From assembly GCA_943788505.1 (NCBI GenBank), contig CALSQR010000001.1, positions 620,001 to 684,000 of the forward strand: a stretch of DNA of 64,000 bases, read 5' to 3'. Below the pieces are notes generated by a model. That model was not told where the DNA came from. It saw only the letters and a list, made by a program, of their open reading frames with translations, and ran no database searches. This document shows positions 7,951 through 43,588 of this stretch, piece after piece; within the stretch, counting starts at the first letter, position 1; the number at the start of each line of letters is the position of its first letter. The stretch is from an uncultured bacterium. GTDB lineage: Bacteria; Bacteroidota; Rhodothermia; Rhodothermales; UBA10348. The position numbers and the translations under genes were made by a program.

Positions 7951-10164
7951 ATGCAGAAGGCTACCGCTATGCTTTTTGTGCTGTTGGCAGTTACGACGCT
8001 TGCCACAGCACAAGAAACAGACGTCCCCTCTATTGAAGCCACGTTCGCTGATGATTCTCCACGCATAGATGGTCGTCTCGATGACGCCGTCTGGTCTCGA
8101 ATCATGCCAATGACGGATTTCGTCCAGCGCTGGCCGAACGAGGGTCAAGATCCCACAGAAGACTCATGGGCTAAAGTCGCATATGACCGTGATAACCTGT
8201 ACTTCGCCTTTCAGTTTTCTGACAAAGAGCCAGAACTGATCCGCGCCAAAAATATGGAGCGAGGTGGTCGCAATGATCGCGATGATCACGCCTATATCGG
8301 GATCGACACTTTTCTTGATGGTCGTAATGCCTTCCTATTCGAAATGAATGCGTTGGGCACCCAGGACGATGCCCTTATCGCCGACGAACACATGACGATC
8401 GACTCCTATTCTTGGGATGCCGTATTCGAAAGCGAAACACAAATCAACGATAAAGGATGGTCGATGGAAGTGAGAATTCCATTCCGGCAGCTTCGATTCC
8501 CTGAGGGCGATGATCTGACCTTCGGTCTGTTCATGAGACGAACAGTCAACCGGAAAAATGAAATCCAGAACTGGCCGCTTATCCCTCTTACATACGGATC
8601 AGGCTATTCCGATGACATGAAGACGGTTTCTAGATATGGACGCTTGACGGGCATAAAGAACATCCGTCGAGGCAAGAACATCGAACTCAAGCCTTATATC
8701 ATCTCTGGAGCTCAGAAAGTCCGTCCTGACCTTCAGATCAAGGATACGGAGTCAGATAGCAACATTGACGCAGGATTTGACCTCAAATATGGCCTGACAT
8801 CCAACTTGACGTTGGATTTCACTATGAACACTGACTTTGCTCAGGTCGAGGCTGACAACACTCAAATAAATCTGACACGATTCAGCCTGTTCTTTCCCGA
8901 AAAGCGTGAGTTTTTCCTAGAGCGCTCAGGAATTTTCGAGCATGGAGATTCTCGTCGCACTCAGACTTTCTTTTCTCGACGAATTGGACTCACTGAATCA
9001 ATTCTTGCGGGCGCACGAATGACCGGTCAAGTTGGACGATTCAACGTGGGTGTTCTCAACATTGAAACAGGTCCAGACGAAGGCAATATTGGCGATAAAC
9101 TCGGCCGCATTTTCGGAGAGGAATCAGCCAATAATGCTGTTGCACGGCTCCAGACTAATTTCGGACGTCGAGGATCAGCAGGGATAATTCTTACCAGTTA
9201 TGACCGTGGGGAAGACTGGAATCGCGCCGTTGGTTTTGACGTGCGACAGCGTTTTGGTTCTGCTAGTAGTGCCGATGTCTGGTTTACCAGCGTTTCGGAC
9301 AGCAATCCAGACAAAGATGACTGGGCAGGTAGCGCCGCCGTTAGCTATCGAAATGACATTTATGGTGCATCCCTGTCCTACACGAGTGTTGGAGAGAACT
9401 ATGCCCCAGCACTCGGCTTTGTGAGGCGCCGGGACATGAGGCAAAGCATCGGTACTGTTACGTACAGTCCATACTTCGACAAGGGCCCATTTCGCCAGAT
9501 GACCTATCACACTATGGGAATCCACACCGATGGTCAAGATGGAGAGCTGCAGTCATGGTCTGTAAACAACAGCGTAGGGTTCACTTCCCGGGAGCGCGAT
9601 AATGTCCGTTTCTCCTTCAGCCGAGAGTTTGATCGTCTTGAGCGCTCGTTTTACATCAGACCAGATGCCGAGATCGTCTCCAATGACTATACGTTTAACC
9701 GCGTCGGAATTAGCCTGACCTCTGATCCGGGTCGTAAGTTTTCAGGTACGCTCAGCGGCGAAACGGGAGGCTTCTATGGTGGAAACCGTACAGACATGCG
9801 TGCAACAGCCGGTTATCGTCAATCTAAGCACCTCACGTTGGGCGGCGGGTTGAGTAGGAATAGTGTTGATCTTCCCATCGACAATGGAAACTTTAGTGCT
9901 ATTACGGCTTCGCTGGACATTCTGGCTAGCGTTTCTCGCAAGTTGTTCGCCAAGGCGCTCATCCAGACAGATAACTTCTCTCGGGACATCAACGCCAACA
10001 TTCGCATTGACTGGATCCATACGCCAGGCTCAGACCTGTTCCTGGTGATCAACACCTCCTATCACGTGACAGATGACAATGAAATGCTCTTCGACCCGCG
10101 CGCCAATTATGTGATGAACAGCAACATTGGTATCGCTAAGCTTACCTATCTGATCCTGCTTTAA
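7951..10164 (+). CDS. DUF5916 outer-membrane protein with CBM9-like N-terminal domain
   Basis: 737 residues from the ATG at 7951; the longer frame beginning at 7864 adds 29 residues ahead of what is clearly a signal peptide (MQKATAMLFVLLAVTTLATAQ). After it comes a carbohydrate-binding-module-9-like domain (about residues 25-220: 'IDGRLDDAVWSR...DNLYFAFQFSDKEPELIRAK... DGWSMEVRIPFRQLRFP'), then a beta-barrel region with 'LTSNLTLDFTMNTDFAQVEADNTQINLTRFSLFFPEKREFFLE', the hallmark of DUF5916. The end (KLTYLILL) fits an outer-membrane strand. Members are common in Bacteroidota and Gemmatimonadota and often lie near peptidases; the function is not established. Lies between two tRNA genes. Confidence 0.88.
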   Translation: MQKATAMLFVLLAVTTLATAQETDVPSIEATFADDSPRIDGRLDDAVWSRIMPMTDFVQRWPNEGQDPTEDSWAKVAYDRDNLYFAFQFSDKEPELIRAKNMERGGRNDRDDHAYIGIDTFLDGRNAFLFEMNALGTQDDALIADEHMTIDSYSWDAVFESETQINDKGWSMEVRIPFRQLRFPEGDDLTFGLFMRRTVNRKNEIQNWPLIPLTYGSGYSDDMKTVSRYGRLTGIKNIRRGKNIELKPYIISGAQKVRPDLQIKDTESDSNIDAGFDLKYGLTSNLTLDFTMNTDFAQVEADNTQINLTRFSLFFPEKREFFLERSGIFEHGDSRRTQTFFSRRIGLTESILAGARMTGQVGRFNVGVLNIETGPDEGNIGDKLGRIFGEESANNAVARLQTNFGRRGSAGIILTSYDRGEDWNRAVGFDVRQRFGSASSADVWFTSVSDSNPDKDDWAGSAAVSYRNDIYGASLSYTSVGENYAPALGFVRRRDMRQSIGTVTYSPYFDKGPFRQMTYHTMGIHTDGQDGELQSWSVNNSVGFTSRERDNVRFSFSREFDRLERSFYIRPDAEIVSNDYTFNRVGISLTSDPGRKFSGTLSGETGGFYGGNRTDMRATAGYRQSKHLTLGGGLSRNSVDLPIDNGNFSAITASLDILASVSRKLFAKALIQTDNFSRDINANIRIDWIHTPGSDLFLVINTSYHVTDDNEMLFDPRANYVMNSNIGIAKLTYLILL

Positions 10165-37515: not shown

Positions 37516-37824
37516 TTAAACGGCAAAATCATCTTTCTTCTTGCCTTTTTTCACCTCAGCAGCCATCCATAATGGCATCCGACCGCGACCTGACCAAGTA
37601 TTGTCTGCATTCTTAGGATCGCGATACTTGATCTTAGCTTTTGCGCGCTTTTTGCCTGCTGATGCCCCAAATAGCTCTTCTACAGAAAAACCAGCATCGG
37701 CCGCCATGGCTGTTAATTTTTTACGGGTTTCAGTCCTTTCCCTTTCCTCACGCTTCTTCATTTCTTTCGTGATATCCGTAGAAAGTTTACGAAGATCAGC
37801 GCGGGACAGTTTTGAGAGATCCAT
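37516..37824 (-). CDS. H-NS-family DNA-binding protein
   Basis: 102 residues from the ATG at 37824; an extension to 37890 adds unrelated residues. The N-terminal half is a coiled coil (SRADLRKLSTDITKEMKKREERERTETRKKL); the C-terminal half 'AKIKYRDPKNADNTWSGRGRMPLWM' carries the H-NS core motif (Y-R-D-P-x-N-x-x-x-T-W-S-G-R-G-R), which inserts Q/R-G-R into the minor groove of AT-rich DNA. It likely acts as a nucleoid protein that silences foreign AT-rich DNA. H-NS proteins are mainly proteobacterial, so transfer is possible. Ends in a strong terminator; the upstream gap is AT-rich. Confidence 0.88.
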   Translation of the reverse strand: MDLSKLSRADLRKLSTDITKEMKKREERERTETRKKLTAMAADAGFSVEELFGASAGKKRAKAKIKYRDPKNADNTWSGRGRMPLWMAAEVKKGKKKDDFAV

Positions 37825-38263
37825 GGAATAACTTGAATGGATTAATTGAATAGTTCGAACAATGTTAGTCACTATTAAACTTTCTAGCAACCAATTATTA
37901 AGCCTAATTACTTGAATTAATCAATAAACAACAAAATCATTCACTGACTAAGTACTAATTCTCCTTTGCCTATCACAATGGTCGTCCGTCGCTGATCAGC
38001 ACAGACGTGAGTTAAGTAATGATAGTCTTGTCAGCTACTCCAGCCGTTGCTATCAATTACCACCAGTTAAGAGGGCAAAACTCAGATATCGAACCAAACC
38101 TACAATCTTTCAAGCGAGTCAAAATTCACATACCACAATATTGGGTATTGACGTAGTTTTCGGTGTTCGTGCATCAAACGCAATGCGACCTTTTCTGCCG
38201 GTAACTTTCCAGGTAGGATCGCATCTACTTCTTCATCAAGGCAGCTCACCCTGAGCTCCTTTT
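37825..38263. other. AT-rich divergent intergenic region
   Basis: About 440 bases between the H-NS-like gene and the Asp-rich protein gene. The part 37825-38000 is strongly AT-rich with many AATTAAT-type runs, a plausible binding and autoregulation region for the H-NS-like protein. No gene or RNA was recognised; promoters for both divergent units must lie here. Confidence 0.4.
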
Positions 38264-38593
38264 ATGCCACTTAGCCCAATAGACGAGGTGATCATTATGT
38301 TGCTCTCACCGGAAGACATGCTGCAGAATTCGGACGTTAGAGAACTCGAACAGGAATACACAGATTGGACGTATGCGGACGAGATTCTCGACACTATCTC
38401 GAACTCATTTGAAGATGACGATGACGATTTTGACGAGGACGATTTCGACGATGACGATTTTGCCCTCGGTGACGACGATGAGGACGATGACGAGGACTCA
38501 GACGACGAAGACGAGGAAGACGACTGGGATTTGGATGATACTGATGATGATGACGACGAAGATGATTGGGACACTGGAGACGATGAATGGTAA
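38264..38593 (+). CDS. Extremely Asp-rich acidic small protein
   Basis: 109 residues, or 98 from a second ATG at 38297, which is preceded by GAGG. The first 45 residues look ordinary (LLSPEDMLQNSDVRELEQEYTDWTYADEILDTISNSFE); from residue 50 to the end almost every residue is Asp or Glu, broken by W, F and L. The predicted isoelectric point must be extremely low. The stop overlaps the start of the deoxyhypusine-synthase-like gene by seven bases, so translation is coupled and the products are probably equimolar partners. No family recognised. A polyanionic tail could bind polyamines or a basic protein; that is inference. Confidence 0.7.
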   Translation: MPLSPIDEVIIMLLSPEDMLQNSDVRELEQEYTDWTYADEILDTISNSFEDDDDDFDEDDFDDDDFALGDDDEDDDEDSDDEDEEDDWDLDDTDDDDDEDDWDTGDDEW

Positions 38594-39636
38594 ATCCTAA
38601 AAGCACATCCGATTCCCCTGGGAACGGCGCAGACCGGGGACAGAATCGCAATCGTGCGGGGATGACCGGTACTGTCGACTTCATCGAATATCATTTCAGA
38701 CATTTCAATGCTGCGGCTCTTGTAGACGCTGCCAAAGGCTATGTGGCGCATCTCGAAGAGGATGGGCTCATGATGGTCACATTGGCTGGCGCAATGAGTA
38801 CGGCTGAGATAGGCCTTTCCCTCGCCGAGATGATCCGCGATGGCCATGTTCACGCCATAACGTGCACAGGAGCCAACCTTGAAGAGGATGTGTTCAATTT
38901 GGTCGCTCATGACCATTACGTACGGATCCCCAACTACCGAGATTTGACGCCAAGTGATGAGCAAGCACTACTTGCCCGGCATCTCAATCGGGTTACGGAT
39001 ACGTGTATTCCGGAAGAGGAAGCGATTCGTCGAATCGAGAAGGTGATTCTCAAGGCGTGGCAGGATGCTGACGCAAGCGGAGAACGTCTTCTTCCTCATC
39101 AGTTTCTGTACCGCATTCTTCTAAGCGGAGATCTTGAGGAGCATTACCAAGTCGACCCAGCCGACTCATGGCTGTTGGCTGCTGCCAAGGCTGACCTCCC
39201 AATGGTGGTGCCCGGTTGGGAAGACTCCACTTTGGGCAACATCTATGCAGCACACTGTATCCAAGGCGATATCAAAAACATTCACACGGTTCGATCTGGG
39301 ATCGAATACATGATGGATCTCGCTGAGTGGTACACCGAGGTTTCTTCTAAACATGACATCGGGTTTTTCCAGATCGGTGGAGGCATTGCAGGAGATTTTC
39401 CGATCTGTGTCGTCCCAATGCTTGAGCAAGATCTGCTCAGAGATACCCGTAAATGGGCGTATTTCTGCCAGATTAGCGACTCAACTACCAGTTATGGTTC
39501 CTATTCCGGCGCTGTACCAAACGAAAAGATCACGTGGGGCAAACTGGATGAATCCAGTAAGTCATTTGTGATCGAGTCAGACGCTACTATTGTGGCTCCT
39601 CTGGTTTTCGCGTACGTACTCGAGCGCTCCCGCTGA
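38587..39636 (+). CDS. Deoxyhypusine-synthase-like enzyme (polyamine aminobutyltransferase)
   Basis: 349 residues. DHS-fold enzymes use NAD to move an aminobutyl group from spermidine to a lysine or another amine. 'MVTLAGAMSTAEIGLSLAEMIRDGHVHAITCTGANLEEDVF' is the NAD-binding start; 'DIGFFQIGGGIAGDFPICVVPML' and 'GSYSGAVPNEKITWGKL' follow, with the active-site Lys in W-G-K (residue 319). Bacteria lack eIF5A, the target of true DHS; the neighbouring arginine decarboxylase, amidase and deiminase genes suggest it makes homospermidine or a related amine from putrescine. Coupled to the Asp-rich gene upstream and overlapping speA downstream. Confidence 0.88.
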   Translation: MVNPKSTSDSPGNGADRGQNRNRAGMTGTVDFIEYHFRHFNAAALVDAAKGYVAHLEEDGLMMVTLAGAMSTAEIGLSLAEMIRDGHVHAITCTGANLEEDVFNLVAHDHYVRIPNYRDLTPSDEQALLARHLNRVTDTCIPEEEAIRRIEKVILKAWQDADASGERLLPHQFLYRILLSGDLEEHYQVDPADSWLLAAAKADLPMVVPGWEDSTLGNIYAAHCIQGDIKNIHTVRSGIEYMMDLAEWYTEVSSKHDIGFFQIGGGIAGDFPICVVPMLEQDLLRDTRKWAYFCQISDSTTSYGSYSGAVPNEKITWGKLDESSKSFVIESDATIVAPLVFAYVLERSR

Positions 39637-41665
39637 GTCTTTTCACTTCCAGACACCCCCTCTATTGATCAAGAACACTGCTGCAACCTCGCAAGGCGCG
39701 GTTCAAGACGACATTAAACCATGGACTCCGGCTAGCGCTGAAGACATGTATCTCATGTCTGCATGGTCGGACGGTTTTTTTTCTGTCAATGAAGCAGGCC
39801 ATGTTCGCGTCAATGTCTCTGACGAATCGTCAAATGGTATCGACATAACAAAAGTAGTCGAGCATCTCGAACGCAAAGGCATCACATTCCCCTTATTGAT
39901 CCGTTTCCAGGATGTGTTGAAAGGGCGAATACAGCAGCTTTATAGTGCCTTTCATGATGCCATTAAGGACGTAGACTATGCGTCGCAGTACACGGCGGTC
40001 TATCCTATCAAGGTGAATCAGCTACACGAAGTAGTTGAGGAAATTCTCGATGCGGGAAAATCTTTTGGGATGGGCCTTGAATGCGGTTCAAAAGCTGAGT
40101 TGATTGCGGCGCTTCCCCTGCTCGATGATGATGACACATTGCTCATCTGCAATGGGTACAAGGATCAGTCGATGTTGGACCTGATTCTTTCTGGGCAAAA
40201 AATTGGCAAGTCCGTCCTTCCAGTGATCGAGAAGATGGATGAATTCCGAACGTATGATGGACGCGCCGAGGAATTAGGCTTGCATGCTCCATTCGGCGTT
40301 CGCTTGCGCCTAACTACCGCTGGAGCGGGTAAATGGGCTGATTCAGGTGGTGATCAGTCGAAATTCGGCATTTCAGTGCCTGAACTGCTCAGAGTTGTTG
40401 CGCTCCTAGAGGAGAGGAATCAGCAAGATCGCTTTCAATTACTTCATTTTCATTTGGGTAGCCAGATTTCGGATATCCGTACGCTGAAAAAGGCCGTAAG
40501 AGAAATTACTCAGGTGTACTCACAGCTTACACGGCGAGGATTGGGCATCAAATTCTTGGATGTAGGAGGTGGACTGGGCATTAATTACGGTGGCTCGTAT
40601 GCCAGCCACGACGACGCGATCAACTATTCCTTGAGTGAATACGCGAATGCTATCGTATCGACGGTCAAGGATGTTTGCGATGCAGAAGGGGTAGCGCATC
40701 CACGCATTATTTCAGAAAGTGGTCGCGCCCTCACAGCTCACCATTCTGTTTTGATCATCAATGCGATCGGACTTTATGCAAAGGAGGAAATGGAGGAAGA
40801 CTTCGTACCCTCTGCTGAGAGCCATCGTCTAGTGAATGACATACATGCCTTAAGGACATGGTTATTGGAAGAGCCAGAGATGGCGATTCCCGAATTGCTC
40901 GAAGCTTTCCACGATGCTTCTGGAAAACGTGCTGAAGCTGATTCGCTTTTCTCTTTGGGATATCTCCCCCTTGAGGAAAAGGCTGTCATCGAAAAGCTCT
41001 ATTGGGCAGTTTGTCGTCAAATCAATGACCGGGTTCAGCATTTTGACTCCGAAGTCCTACCCCCCGAATTGGACCGACTGGATTCTCATCTAATAGATCA
41101 GTGCCTGTGCGATTTTTCAGTCTTCCAGTCCTTATTAGACCACTGGGCGATTGGTCAACGATTCCCAATCATTCCCATGCAACGGCTGAATGAAGAGCCT
41201 ACCCGCCGCGCGGTGCTGGTCGATCTTACCTGCGATTCGGATGGTAAGGTCTCCTCCTACGTAGGCCTAGGAAACAAGGAACATGAGTTCTTGCATATGC
41301 ATGGTTTTGATGCTGACGAGCCCTACCGCTTCGGCATCTTTCTCGTGGGAGCCTATCAGGACATCATGGGCGACACGCACAATCTGTTCGGGCGCGTGAC
41401 CGAAGCTCATATTTATGCCGATGCTGATGAGCCAGAAGGGTTTTACGTCGAAAAAGTGATCCGTGGAACCGCCGTAAAGGATATGCTAGCCCTTGTGCAG
41501 TATTTCCCGAATGACCTGTACAATAGGATGAATAAGCATATCCGCGCTCGTATTCAGGAGGGAAAATTGAAGGCAAGTGAGGGGTATGAGTTGCTCGAAC
41601 GATACGCTGAGACTTTCAACGAATCGACCTATTACACGATGCCGAAAAACCGAGAAATGGAATGA
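39590..41665 (+). CDS. speA: Biosynthetic arginine decarboxylase
   Basis: Up to 691 residues. PLP enzyme that turns arginine into agmatine, first step to putrescine. 'YTAVYPIKVNQLHEVVEEIL' holds the PLP Lys (about 141), 'GMGLECGSKAELIAALPLL', 'LLHFHLGSQISDI' and 'LDVGGGLGINYGGS' give the alanine-racemase-fold barrel, and 'ISESGRALTAHHSVLI' the phosphate site. Start is uncertain: the ATG at 39590 overlaps the DHS-like gene by 47 bases, and a TTG at 39665 or ATG at 39746 would still retain the barrel. It overlaps the next gene by four bases (ATGA). Confidence 0.93.
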   Translation: MWLLWFSRTYSSAPAESFHFQTPPLLIKNTAATSQGAVQDDIKPWTPASAEDMYLMSAWSDGFFSVNEAGHVRVNVSDESSNGIDITKVVEHLERKGITFPLLIRFQDVLKGRIQQLYSAFHDAIKDVDYASQYTAVYPIKVNQLHEVVEEILDAGKSFGMGLECGSKAELIAALPLLDDDDTLLICNGYKDQSMLDLILSGQKIGKSVLPVIEKMDEFRTYDGRAEELGLHAPFGVRLRLTTAGAGKWADSGGDQSKFGISVPELLRVVALLEERNQQDRFQLLHFHLGSQISDIRTLKKAVREITQVYSQLTRRGLGIKFLDVGGGLGINYGGSYASHDDAINYSLSEYANAIVSTVKDVCDAEGVAHPRIISESGRALTAHHSVLIINAIGLYAKEEMEEDFVPSAESHRLVNDIHALRTWLLEEPEMAIPELLEAFHDASGKRAEADSLFSLGYLPLEEKAVIEKLYWAVCRQINDRVQHFDSEVLPPELDRLDSHLIDQCLCDFSVFQSLLDHWAIGQRFPIIPMQRLNEEPTRRAVLVDLTCDSDGKVSSYVGLGNKEHEFLHMHGFDADEPYRFGIFLVGAYQDIMGDTHNLFGRVTEAHIYADADEPEGFYVEKVIRGTAVKDMLALVQYFPNDLYNRMNKHIRARIQEGKLKASEGYELLERYAETFNESTYYTMPKNREME

Positions 41666-42567
41666 CAACGACTGAAGGCATTCGCATTGCTGCCCTGCAG
41701 TTTTCCTGCTCGACCGATTCAGTCGCCAATTTGGCGAAAGCAGAGAGGCTGTCTCGTGAAGCGGCAGCTGACGGGGCAAAACTTATTTGTCTTCCCGAGC
41801 TATTCCAGACTCGTTATTTCTGCCAGACAGAAACGGGTGATCATTTCGCATTGGCAGAGCCCATTCCCGGACCGACGACCTCGTATTTCGAAAAGCTGTC
41901 CGCTGAATTGGGCGTATCATTTGTTTTGAGCTTGTTCGAGAAGCGTACCGAGGGGCTGTATCACAACACGGCAGCGGTTATTGATCCTGAAAAAGGCTAC
42001 CTCGGCAAGTATCGCAAGATGCACATTCCAGATGACCCCTTGTTCTTAGAAAAATTCTATTTCACCCCAGGAGATCTCGGATTTAAGGTTTTCGAAACAT
42101 CAGGTATTAAAGTAGGTGTGCTAATCTGCTGGGACCAGTGGTTTCCCGAAGGCGCGCGCATGACCGCGCTAAAAGGTGCACAAGTTCTCGTCTACCCAAC
42201 TGCTATTGGTTGGCACCCATCAGAGAAGGAAACGCACGGCGATGCACAGCTATCCGCCTGGCAGACTATTCAGCGCTCCCACGCCGTGGCAAACGGTGTG
42301 TATGTCGTTGCGGTCAATCGCACGGGCTTTGAGCCCACCAATGAAGACGAAGGCTATCCAGATGGTATCCAGTTTTGGGGTAACTCGTTCATAGCCGGTC
42401 CAGACGGCGTGCCCGTTGCATCGGCTGAGGAAAAGGACGAAGGACACATTATGACGGACTTCAATGTCAAAGACATTGCCGACCAGCGTCACGGGTGGCC
42501 GTTTCTTCGAGATCGACGAGTGGATGCGTACGATGGCCTCAATAAGAAGTACCTCGACGAGGACTAG
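41662..42567 (+). CDS. aguB: N-carbamoylputrescine amidase
   Basis: 301 residues. Nitrilase-fold enzyme that hydrolyses N-carbamoylputrescine to putrescine, CO2 and ammonia. Catalytic triad: Glu in 'LICLPELFQTRYFCQ', Lys in 'YRKMHIPDDP', Cys in 'VGVLICWDQWFPEGAR'. The 'PELFQ..YFCQ' and 'WFPEGAR..AL.GA..L.YPTAIGWHP' patterns are diagnostic for the AguB branch. Its start overlaps speA by four bases, and aguA starts four bases after its stop, so the pathway enzymes are one unit. Confidence 0.95.
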   Translation: MTTTEGIRIAALQFSCSTDSVANLAKAERLSREAAADGAKLICLPELFQTRYFCQTETGDHFALAEPIPGPTTSYFEKLSAELGVSFVLSLFEKRTEGLYHNTAAVIDPEKGYLGKYRKMHIPDDPLFLEKFYFTPGDLGFKVFETSGIKVGVLICWDQWFPEGARMTALKGAQVLVYPTAIGWHPSEKETHGDAQLSAWQTIQRSHAVANGVYVVAVNRTGFEPTNEDEGYPDGIQFWGNSFIAGPDGVPVASAEEKDEGHIMTDFNVKDIADQRHGWPFLRDRRVDAYDGLNKKYLDED

Positions 42568-42571
42568 TCCC

Positions 42572-43588
42572 GTGTCGAAACGAATATTTCCTGCTGAATG
42601 GGCCTTGCATGCCGCCTCTTGGTTTACTTGGCCTGCTAATCCAGATACGTGGACAGACGCTATTGATGCCGTCCGTCGAGACTTGGCGTCCGCCTTCGTT
42701 GAAATCGCCCGTGGTGAACCTGTACTTGTCAATGTGGCCTCTGCAGAGGAGGCAGAACAGGTCCATGAATTGACGGGCGGCCACCCTGATGTGGTAACGC
42801 TCAATTTGCCGTCGAACGACTCCTGGTGCCGCGACCACGGACCGACTATCGTGATGGAGGGTGGCCGCCCGAAAGCCATCACATGGAACTACAATGCTTG
42901 GGGAGGCAAGTATCCTCCCTATGACCTAGATGCGAAGCTCGGCGCTCAAATGGCAGCCTGCATCGGTGTCCCGCATGAGAAGGCGTCCATTACGCTCGAA
43001 GGTGGTGCTTTAGAGTCAAATGGAGAAGACATCCTTCTAACCACCGCCTCTTGCGTACTTAACCCAAACCGCAATCCGGGCCTCACCCGCGAAGATGCGG
43101 AACGCCACCTAATCGAGCGACTTGGTTTGCCGATCGTGGGCTGGCTCGAAGGTGAGCTCGATGGCGATGACACCGATGGTCATATCGACAACCTAGTCCG
43201 ATTCTCCGGACCTTACTCGATACTGATCGCAGAATCCATCGCTGGATTAGCAAACATCCTCGAATTAAATCGCCTTGAGCAAATCAGTGGCAGGACGTTC
43301 CGAATGGACACGTTACCGTCCCCGCCCGTGCTTTTGCATGAGGGACATCCCCTTCCCTGCTCCCACATGAACTTCTACGTCACCAACGCTTGCGTCATTC
43401 TGCCCACGTATGGTGGCGAGTCCGATCAAACGGCGCAACGGACTTTGACAGAGCACTTTCCAAGCCACAACATCGTTCCAGTAGACTGCCGGAGCATCAT
43501 CCGAGGCCTGGGTGCGATCCACTGCTTGAGCCAGCAGATTCCGGCCTTTGATGGCTTTATACGACCAACCGACGATTTCCTATCTTGA
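42572..43588 (+). CDS. aguA: Agmatine deiminase
   Basis: 338 residues from the GTG at 42572 (VSKRIFPAEWALHAASW...), placed four bases after aguB; an in-frame ATG at 42464 lies deep inside aguB and is rejected. Converts agmatine to N-carbamoylputrescine. Motifs of the guanidino-group-modifying (PAD-like) fold: 'SNDSWCRDHGPTIV', 'ITLEGGALESNGEDILLTTASCVLN', 'DTDGHIDNLVRF' with His, and 'LGAIHCLSQQIP' with the catalytic Cys near the end. All are present. It completes arginine to putrescine together with SpeA and AguB. Confidence 0.95.
   Translation: MSKRIFPAEWALHAASWFTWPANPDTWTDAIDAVRRDLASAFVEIARGEPVLVNVASAEEAEQVHELTGGHPDVVTLNLPSNDSWCRDHGPTIVMEGGRPKAITWNYNAWGGKYPPYDLDAKLGAQMAACIGVPHEKASITLEGGALESNGEDILLTTASCVLNPNRNPGLTREDAERHLIERLGLPIVGWLEGELDGDDTDGHIDNLVRFSGPYSILIAESIAGLANILELNRLEQISGRTFRMDTLPSPPVLLHEGHPLPCSHMNFYVTNACVILPTYGGESDQTAQRTLTEHFPSHNIVPVDCRSIIRGLGAIHCLSQQIPAFDGFIRPTDDFLS

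Follow-up and report, generated by a model that had tools for sequence, protein, structure and literature searches.

The closest described counterparts of the locus analysed here are bacterial operons built around a deoxyhypusine synthase (DHS) homologue of the SpeY type, of which Anabaena reportedly provides an example. SpeY is a DHS homologue that makes homospermidine, as stated in the accessible portions of two reports (PMC9992855, PMC10407285), and in one of the two its gene is drawn in a cluster with ADC, AIH and NCPAH genes. In the spermidine-binding protein PotD, according to the accessible part of its description, the ligand is gripped by eight residues, four of them acidic and four aromatic (PMC11414716). 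We found that the 64,000-nucleotide stretch of DNA under analysis (the window) carries an operon of the SpeY kind, which is already known, together with a new element, a gene for a small acidic protein. Among the matches listed from the open-licence literature, none describes an acidic protein partnered with SpeY or with bacterial enzymes of the DHS-like kind. To our knowledge, the sensing and holding of polyamines in the bacterial cytosol are poorly understood, and proteins dedicated to binding them there are little known. For such binding, the conserved acidic-aromatic protein, linked to what is probably a homospermidine synthase, is a small and concrete candidate. The locus comprises:

37519 to 37890, minus strand: H-NS family protein gene (PF00816, 62 bits), divergent from the operon that begins with the acidic ORF
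38121 to 38155, plus strand: promoter- or operator-like element AAAATTCAYR-N12-GGGTATTGnCGTA, 109-143 bases upstream of the acidic ORF
38264 to 38593, plus strand: acidic-aromatic small protein, 109 aa (an alternative start at 38297 is possible), laid out as about 50 N-terminal residues with predicted helices, then about 60 residues of Asp/Glu (D/E) tract with W, F and L, and a C-terminal EW
38587 to 38593, plus strand: 7-nt overlap, the last bases of the acidic ORF being also the first of the DHS-like ORF
38587 to 39636, plus strand: SpeY-like DHS-fold enzyme, 349 aa (PF01916, E=5e-44, 151 bits)
39590 to 41665, plus strand: speA, biosynthetic arginine decarboxylase (TIGR01273, 670 bits, over cut-off; true start probably downstream)
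41662 to 42567, plus strand: aguB-like N-carbamoylputrescine amidase (TIGR03381, the best family, 305 bits against a cut-off of 410; PF00795)
42464 to 43588, plus strand: aguA-like agmatine deiminase (PF04371, 315 bits, over cut-off; true start probably downstream)

Downstream of the DHS-like gene, speA, aguB and aguA constitute a route from arginine to putrescine; the aguA-like ORF scores 219 bits against TIGR03380, below the cut-off of 382. All four genes stand in the order enzyme-speA-aguB-aguA in 13 of the 16 enzyme-bearing genomes of the window's family, and contig ends cut the other three. Judged by layout, the acidic ORF appears to be the operon's first gene. Its upstream neighbours are an SRAP gene and, on the opposite strand, the H-NS family gene; an ORF that from its sequence we take to encode a DnaE-type polymerase also lies upstream of the operon. 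The AAAATTCAYR-N12-GGGTATTGnCGTA element is found with at most one mismatch in all eight enzyme-bearing g1 and g2 genomes, and its strict pattern occurs once each in six of the 27 family genomes, every time at this operon. It was not found, allowing up to five mismatches, at the g10, g4, g7, f4, f6 and other loci, some of which have little upstream DNA, and one g10 locus is similar by eye at the site. The element has the appearance of a promoter or operator belonging to the operon itself. A terminator-like hairpin at 38243-38257 (+), just upstream of the acidic start, is at chance level (four found and 2.4 expected in the stretch scanned).

The seven-base overlap between the acidic ORF and the enzyme gene is present as originally noted. 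Measured from the first base of the acidic stop codon, the DHS ATG is 4 nt upstream in all eight g1 and g10 genomes. Enzyme starts downstream of that base are seen in other groups: three of four g2 genomes have a GTG as the nearest start, 9 nt on, the first candidates in g4 come 3, 6 and 15 nt on, and the distance is 34 nt in f6 and 98 nt in f4. The overlap suggests that translational coupling of the two ORFs is probable. A structured RNA leader before the enzyme was looked for and not found: at all six junctions folded the RNA (141 nt, single-sequence folding) folds no better than shuffles (z of -0.79 to 2.11), and Rfam gives no match at the junction.

The 109-residue acidic protein contains 58 acidic residues (43 Asp and 15 Glu), one Arg and no Lys. 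Its last 60 residues had been described as nearly all Asp/Glu; residues 50-109 are indeed strongly acidic with interspersed aromatics (three Trp and three Phe), but their D/E share is 77%, the remainder being mostly Trp, Phe, Leu, Gly, Thr, Ser and Ala. When every stop-to-stop frame of the window is scanned, this one has the top D/E share over 30 residues, 0.87, and the runner-up has 0.37. A run of eight D/E codons occurs at three sites in the genome, namely in the acidic ORF, in a gene whose product has a DivIVA domain and towards the 3' end of the gene for a putative UvrA. The DivIVA-domain protein (L111 1263-2279 (-); C1 about 350,700) has a long acidic tail with Tyr and Trp in its D/E runs, resembling the acidic ORF in style, and an acidic tail also ends the ABC protein that we take to be UvrA, for which Pfam shows only ABC_tran over cut-off. 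On the opposite strand, a poly-Ser ORF (38236-38964 (-)) mirrors the Asp codons of the acidic ORF.

Between relatives, the dN/dS of the acidic ORF is 0.08-0.22 in six of nine pairs, perhaps somewhat low since aligning a repetitive tract favours identity, and the remaining three pairs are saturated. Synonymous change is plentiful (pS 0.34-0.83, with pN 0.05-0.30), and the DHS-like enzyme, for comparison, has a dN/dS of 0.03-0.09 in the six pairs giving a value. By these substitution measures the acidic ORF is a genuine coding gene in its frame, under purifying selection. A chance repeat was ruled out as its origin by the dN/dS values and by its absence elsewhere.

In 13 complete family sequences the acidic tract is 44-92 residues long and consists of 51.8% Asp, 22.6% Glu, 7.3% Trp and 0.8% Lys plus Arg, so that the D/E share is 74% and Trp ranks third among its residues; the acidic ORFs as a whole span 57-192 codons. 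(The ORFs of G022 and G025, cut by contig ends, are excluded from the composition, dN/dS and alignment, and the composition figure also excludes L013, L099 and L108.) Because no Asp or Glu codon can become TGG by fewer than two changes, the Trp residues are not simple repeat drift. The aromatics are dispersed along the tract, with gaps of 1 to 43 residues among family members. A mid-tract D/E-Y/F-x-L/F motif is found in all ten complete g1, g2 and g10 proteins, a final Trp in all 12 proteins of these genera (as Glu-Trp in 11), and a Y-A-D-x-I-L motif in three of four g1 proteins and in the g10 members uncut at that point. The three g4 proteins lack this ending. The acidic ORFs of G017 and G045 (loci L013 and L099) run on into a C-terminal part that is more basic and rich in Arg, and in which both have an LESRF motif.

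AlphaFold places helices at residues 5-14, 16-19, 22-32 and 37-50 and coil thereafter, with low confidence (mean pLDDT 63, about 55-63 in the tail, pTM 0.23), which is in line with a predicted disordered chain. At E limits of 0.01 for Pfam and NCBIfam, 1 for PHROGs and 0.001 for PDB sequences, the window's acidic protein has no match, and three Pfam families, each matching one of 13 acidic members at E 0.053 or worse, are not credible. The suggestion that this protein might be the enzyme's Lys-bearing substrate did not survive the comparison: ten of 16 complete sequences lack Lys and the other six have one to three. The alignment of 13 acidic proteins has no conserved Lys column, and the sole Lys position seen to be shared is that of two g4 members, the third having Arg.

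A PF01916 gene is present in 16 of the 27 genomes of the window's family, and in all 16 an acidic ORF lies directly upstream of it, which bears out the predicted conserved and close linkage. Moreover, speA scores over its cut-off in exactly the same 16 genomes. In G022 and G025 the contig begins inside the acidic ORF, and the missing half of the G025 ORF was located, along with the SRAP and H-NS genes, where another contig ends. Some of the 11 family genomes without the enzyme are incomplete assemblies, and others are >95% complete (G009, G019); in G011 a fragment of speA at the edge of a contig means that the assembly may conceal the operon. A profile found no acidic homologue in these 11 genomes, a weak result given that it missed six of the 16 carriers.

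The expectation that enzyme-bearing relatives would keep the acidic ORF, which holds throughout the family, largely fails beyond it. In the rest of the order, the ORF precedes the enzyme in only two of 14 genomes with the enzyme gene (G045, from f4, and G053, the sole carrier among three f6 genomes), and in the rest of the class in none of 30. In G056 and G061, from other families, the identical four genes are present and no frame reaches a D/E share of 0.55 in 10-11 kb. Among 79 loci from named genomes (from the best 80 listed; L017, a contig of G006, entered neither the counts nor the tree), there is no acidic ORF within up to 1200 nt before the enzyme, and the highest upstream 30-residue D/E share is 0.53, on the opposite strand at L085. 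In the 775,247 nt around these 79 DHS-like genes no frame has a 30-residue D/E share of at least 0.6. L032 and L098 are apparently one contig, and each was retained in its own set (the 79 and the 14). In the g2 genomes L153, L155, L157 and L160, a frame some kb past the enzyme reaches 0.57 D/E per 30 residues, and in L153 this frame, at 9540-10163, has a short acidic tail at its end.

The acidic ORF is mostly absent outside the family, and its link to the enzyme is therefore lineage-specific. On this genomic survey the acidic gene is a lineage-specific accessory that the enzyme in general does not need; close enzyme homologues without it, some labelled Gammaproteobacteria, indicate that it is presumably dispensable for catalysis. 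In the enzyme tree, family members are mixed with Gammaproteobacteria-labelled loci and with other families of the order (key node support 0.48), a placement suggesting either that the enzyme gene was transferred while the acidic gene was not, or that binning went wrong. The enzymes of L019, L020, L022, L025, L038, L055 and L056, with Gammaproteobacteria, Woeseia and Chromatiales labels, group among Rhodothermales.

The identity of the enzyme as DHS-like, also part of the original prediction, is supported by its PF01916 match and by its fold. The model is DHS-like (pLDDT 82, pTM 0.82), and the best 50 Foldseek hits listed are all DHS structures (best E 1.1e-9, prob 1.00, TM about 0.56-0.67 by query). 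W317 and K319 of a W-G-K motif, whose Lys we take to be equivalent to human K329, are invariant in all 39 aligned enzymes (39 of 109 sequences; L027 and L049, with a stop inside the stretch, were left out). Among the DHS-type models of NCBIfam, PRK00770 (homospermidine) scores best, at 128 bits against a cut-off of 450, and the enzyme is therefore filed as SpeY-like only; PRK02492 (caldomycin synthase) gives 91 bits, below its cut-off of 500. In the genome (2.75 Mb, two contigs, 96.87% complete) eIF5A has no match by PF01287, a search positive in three of 14 control genomes, all archaea. A true deoxyhypusine synthase is disfavoured on this ground, the eIF5A substrate not having been found. The DHS fold and the speA, aguB and aguA genes match published SpeY clusters, from which we infer that the enzyme probably makes homospermidine from two putrescines.

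Nor, among the alternative triamine routes searched for, was one found in the genome: the spermidine-synthase family and the saccharopine-dehydrogenase C-terminal domain that we take as the marker of HSS and CASDH gave no match, and CASDC gave none over cut-off, a 39.6-bit CASDC match on a 409-aa frame being perhaps diaminopimelate decarboxylase. Spermidine, which had been proposed as a ligand of the acidic protein, is therefore unlikely, and putrescine and homospermidine are the expected ligands.

Within the family, the enzyme core has a mean net charge of -19.9 (16 members) compared with -13.8 in 93 others, and 12 order members without the acidic ORF have similar values (-15 to -28). The family-specific columns are V53, I147, K226 (12 of 16), E280, S326 and E/D346. 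A basic docking patch was looked for by sequence comparison and rejected, no family-specific basic cluster being present. Together with the acidic core, this argues against simple electrostatic docking of the acidic protein. An N-terminal extension with N-R-x-G is found on the enzyme in all eight g1 and g10 genomes; six genomes that do have the acidic ORF, three of g2 and three of g4, lack it.

In enzyme-bearing family genomes the pair is never apart, and the acidic protein may for this reason be a binder or sensor of polyamines for the pathway. Our preferred reading, put forward tentatively and as something short of probable, is that it serves a SpeY-type operon as a polyamine-binding accessory or feedback protein, disordered and multivalent. 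The acidic tract with its scattered Trp, Tyr and Phe would bind polyamines, in effect repeating a PotD-like acidic-plus-aromatic chemistry many times over. On a polyanion, a trivalent product should out-compete a divalent substrate, as is general for polyelectrolytes, and homospermidine would thus be held more strongly than putrescine. Product uptake beside the enzyme could pull a reversible reaction forward; Park in 2003 reportedly described reversal of the DHS reaction, yielding spermidine or homospermidine. The acidic protein might also, or instead, relay the product level to the enzyme, using its N-terminal helices together with two short hydrophobic motifs, the mid-tract D/E-Y/F-x-L/F and the C-terminal Trp. 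Against buffering as such, the millimolar polyamine pool exceeds what a low-abundance protein could buffer. A more specific proposal, which we regard as rather doubtful, is an antizyme-like logic in bacteria in which the disordered polyanion senses homospermidine through its Trp-bearing D/E tract and sets SpeY output by product-dependent binding. The acidic protein would also be a simple model of a disordered chain that selectively binds small polycations.

Other roles have to be weighed against a polyamine-binding accessory. The ORF could act in cis as a leader whose nascent acidic chain destabilises or pauses the ribosome according to the Mg2+ or polyamine level and so meters re-initiation at the enzyme, the free protein being functionless. 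The overlap or closeness of the two ORFs would suit such a leader, as would an operon product that is a cation and hence a possible signal. Acidic residues destabilise ribosomes and the Asp/Glu codons of MgtQ govern a downstream Mg2+ transporter gene, as reported in the accessible part of PMC8092293, and a polyamine-responsive nascent peptide is known in antizyme mRNA, by the accessible part of PMC4505036. We nevertheless consider this unlikely. The EttA-dependent effect in E. coli requires acidic residues in about the first 30, according to the portion available of PMC11282234, but the first dense acidic window begins after residue 30 in eight of 16 sequences and by residue 30 in the other eight, a count that depends on the start codon. 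A tract of 44-92 residues with conserved Trp exceeds the need, the junction RNA shows only shuffle-level folding and no Rfam family, and simple drop-off at low cation would reduce enzyme output, the wrong sign for homeostasis. Quite unlikely, in our view, is a structural or solubility partner, in which the N-terminal helices would attach to the enzyme while the tail maintains the tetramer in a soluble or assembled state, with no sensing of polyamines. Obligate partners are often encoded by overlapping genes, as here, and the short conserved motifs of the acidic protein (Y-A-D-x-I-L and D/E-Y/F-x-L/F) also speak for such a partner, along with the N-R-x-G extension of the g1 and g10 enzymes. However, the N-terminal region of the acidic protein differs between genera, the extension is absent from six genomes that retain the ORF, and the enzyme has relatives without such an upstream gene.

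There are two further readings. The acidic protein could be a generic Mg2+ or Ca2+ binder, or a salt-adaptation protein, placed in the operon by positional accident, which we judge decidedly unlikely. The acidic tails of the DivIVA-domain protein and the putative UvrA indicate that such tails are not polyamine-specific, but the ORF accompanies the operon in every enzyme-bearing family genome, its Trp is conserved, and the profile search of the enzyme-less family genomes, insensitive as it is, detected no homologue. A nucleic-acid mimic or other trans function, for example as an antagonist of the divergent H-NS family protein, draws on the possibility of DNA mimicry by polyanions and on the position of the H-NS family gene, which adjoins the acidic ORF in the window and in all five g1 and g10 relatives with contigs long enough. 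It is very unlikely: tblastn gives no H-NS family match in the g2, g4, g7, f4 and f6 regions (some short upstream), where the pairing is still kept, and the enzyme is the constant neighbour of the acidic ORF.

The polyamine-binding reading can be set beside several described systems. The MgtL and MgtQ leaders, which work by intrinsic ribosome destabilization, are alike in having an acid-containing ORF upstream of a cation-homeostasis gene. MgtQ, in the part of its description available, has eight codons, whereas the ORF here has 57-192 with a long tract and conserved Trp, and, unlike at these leaders, no controlling RNA structure was found at the six junctions or by Rfam. The acidic and aromatic side chains with which PotD binds spermidine, as given in the accessible part of its description, parallel the composition of the tract, yet PotD is a folded, two-lobe, periplasmic transport protein and the tract is predicted to be unstructured, its binding putative. 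The caldomycin synthase CdmS of Thermus, which in the portion of the source available homocouples agmatine, is likewise a bacterial DHS-related polyamine enzyme; the operon here differs in converting agmatine to putrescine via AguA and AguB, the enzyme falls far short of the PRK02492 cut-off, and the accessible part of the CdmS description names no acidic partner. Closest are the SpeY clusters of Ca. Pelagibacter and Fonsibacter, in which a DHS-fold enzyme is likewise found with arginine decarboxylase, agmatine deiminase and N-carbamoylputrescine amidohydrolase, a likeness to which the failure to find eIF5A in the window's genome adds. The decarboxylase is SpeA here and an ODC-derived ADC in the published clusters, the PRK00770 cut-off is missed here, and, in contrast to those clusters, a gene for a small acidic protein overlaps the start of the enzyme.
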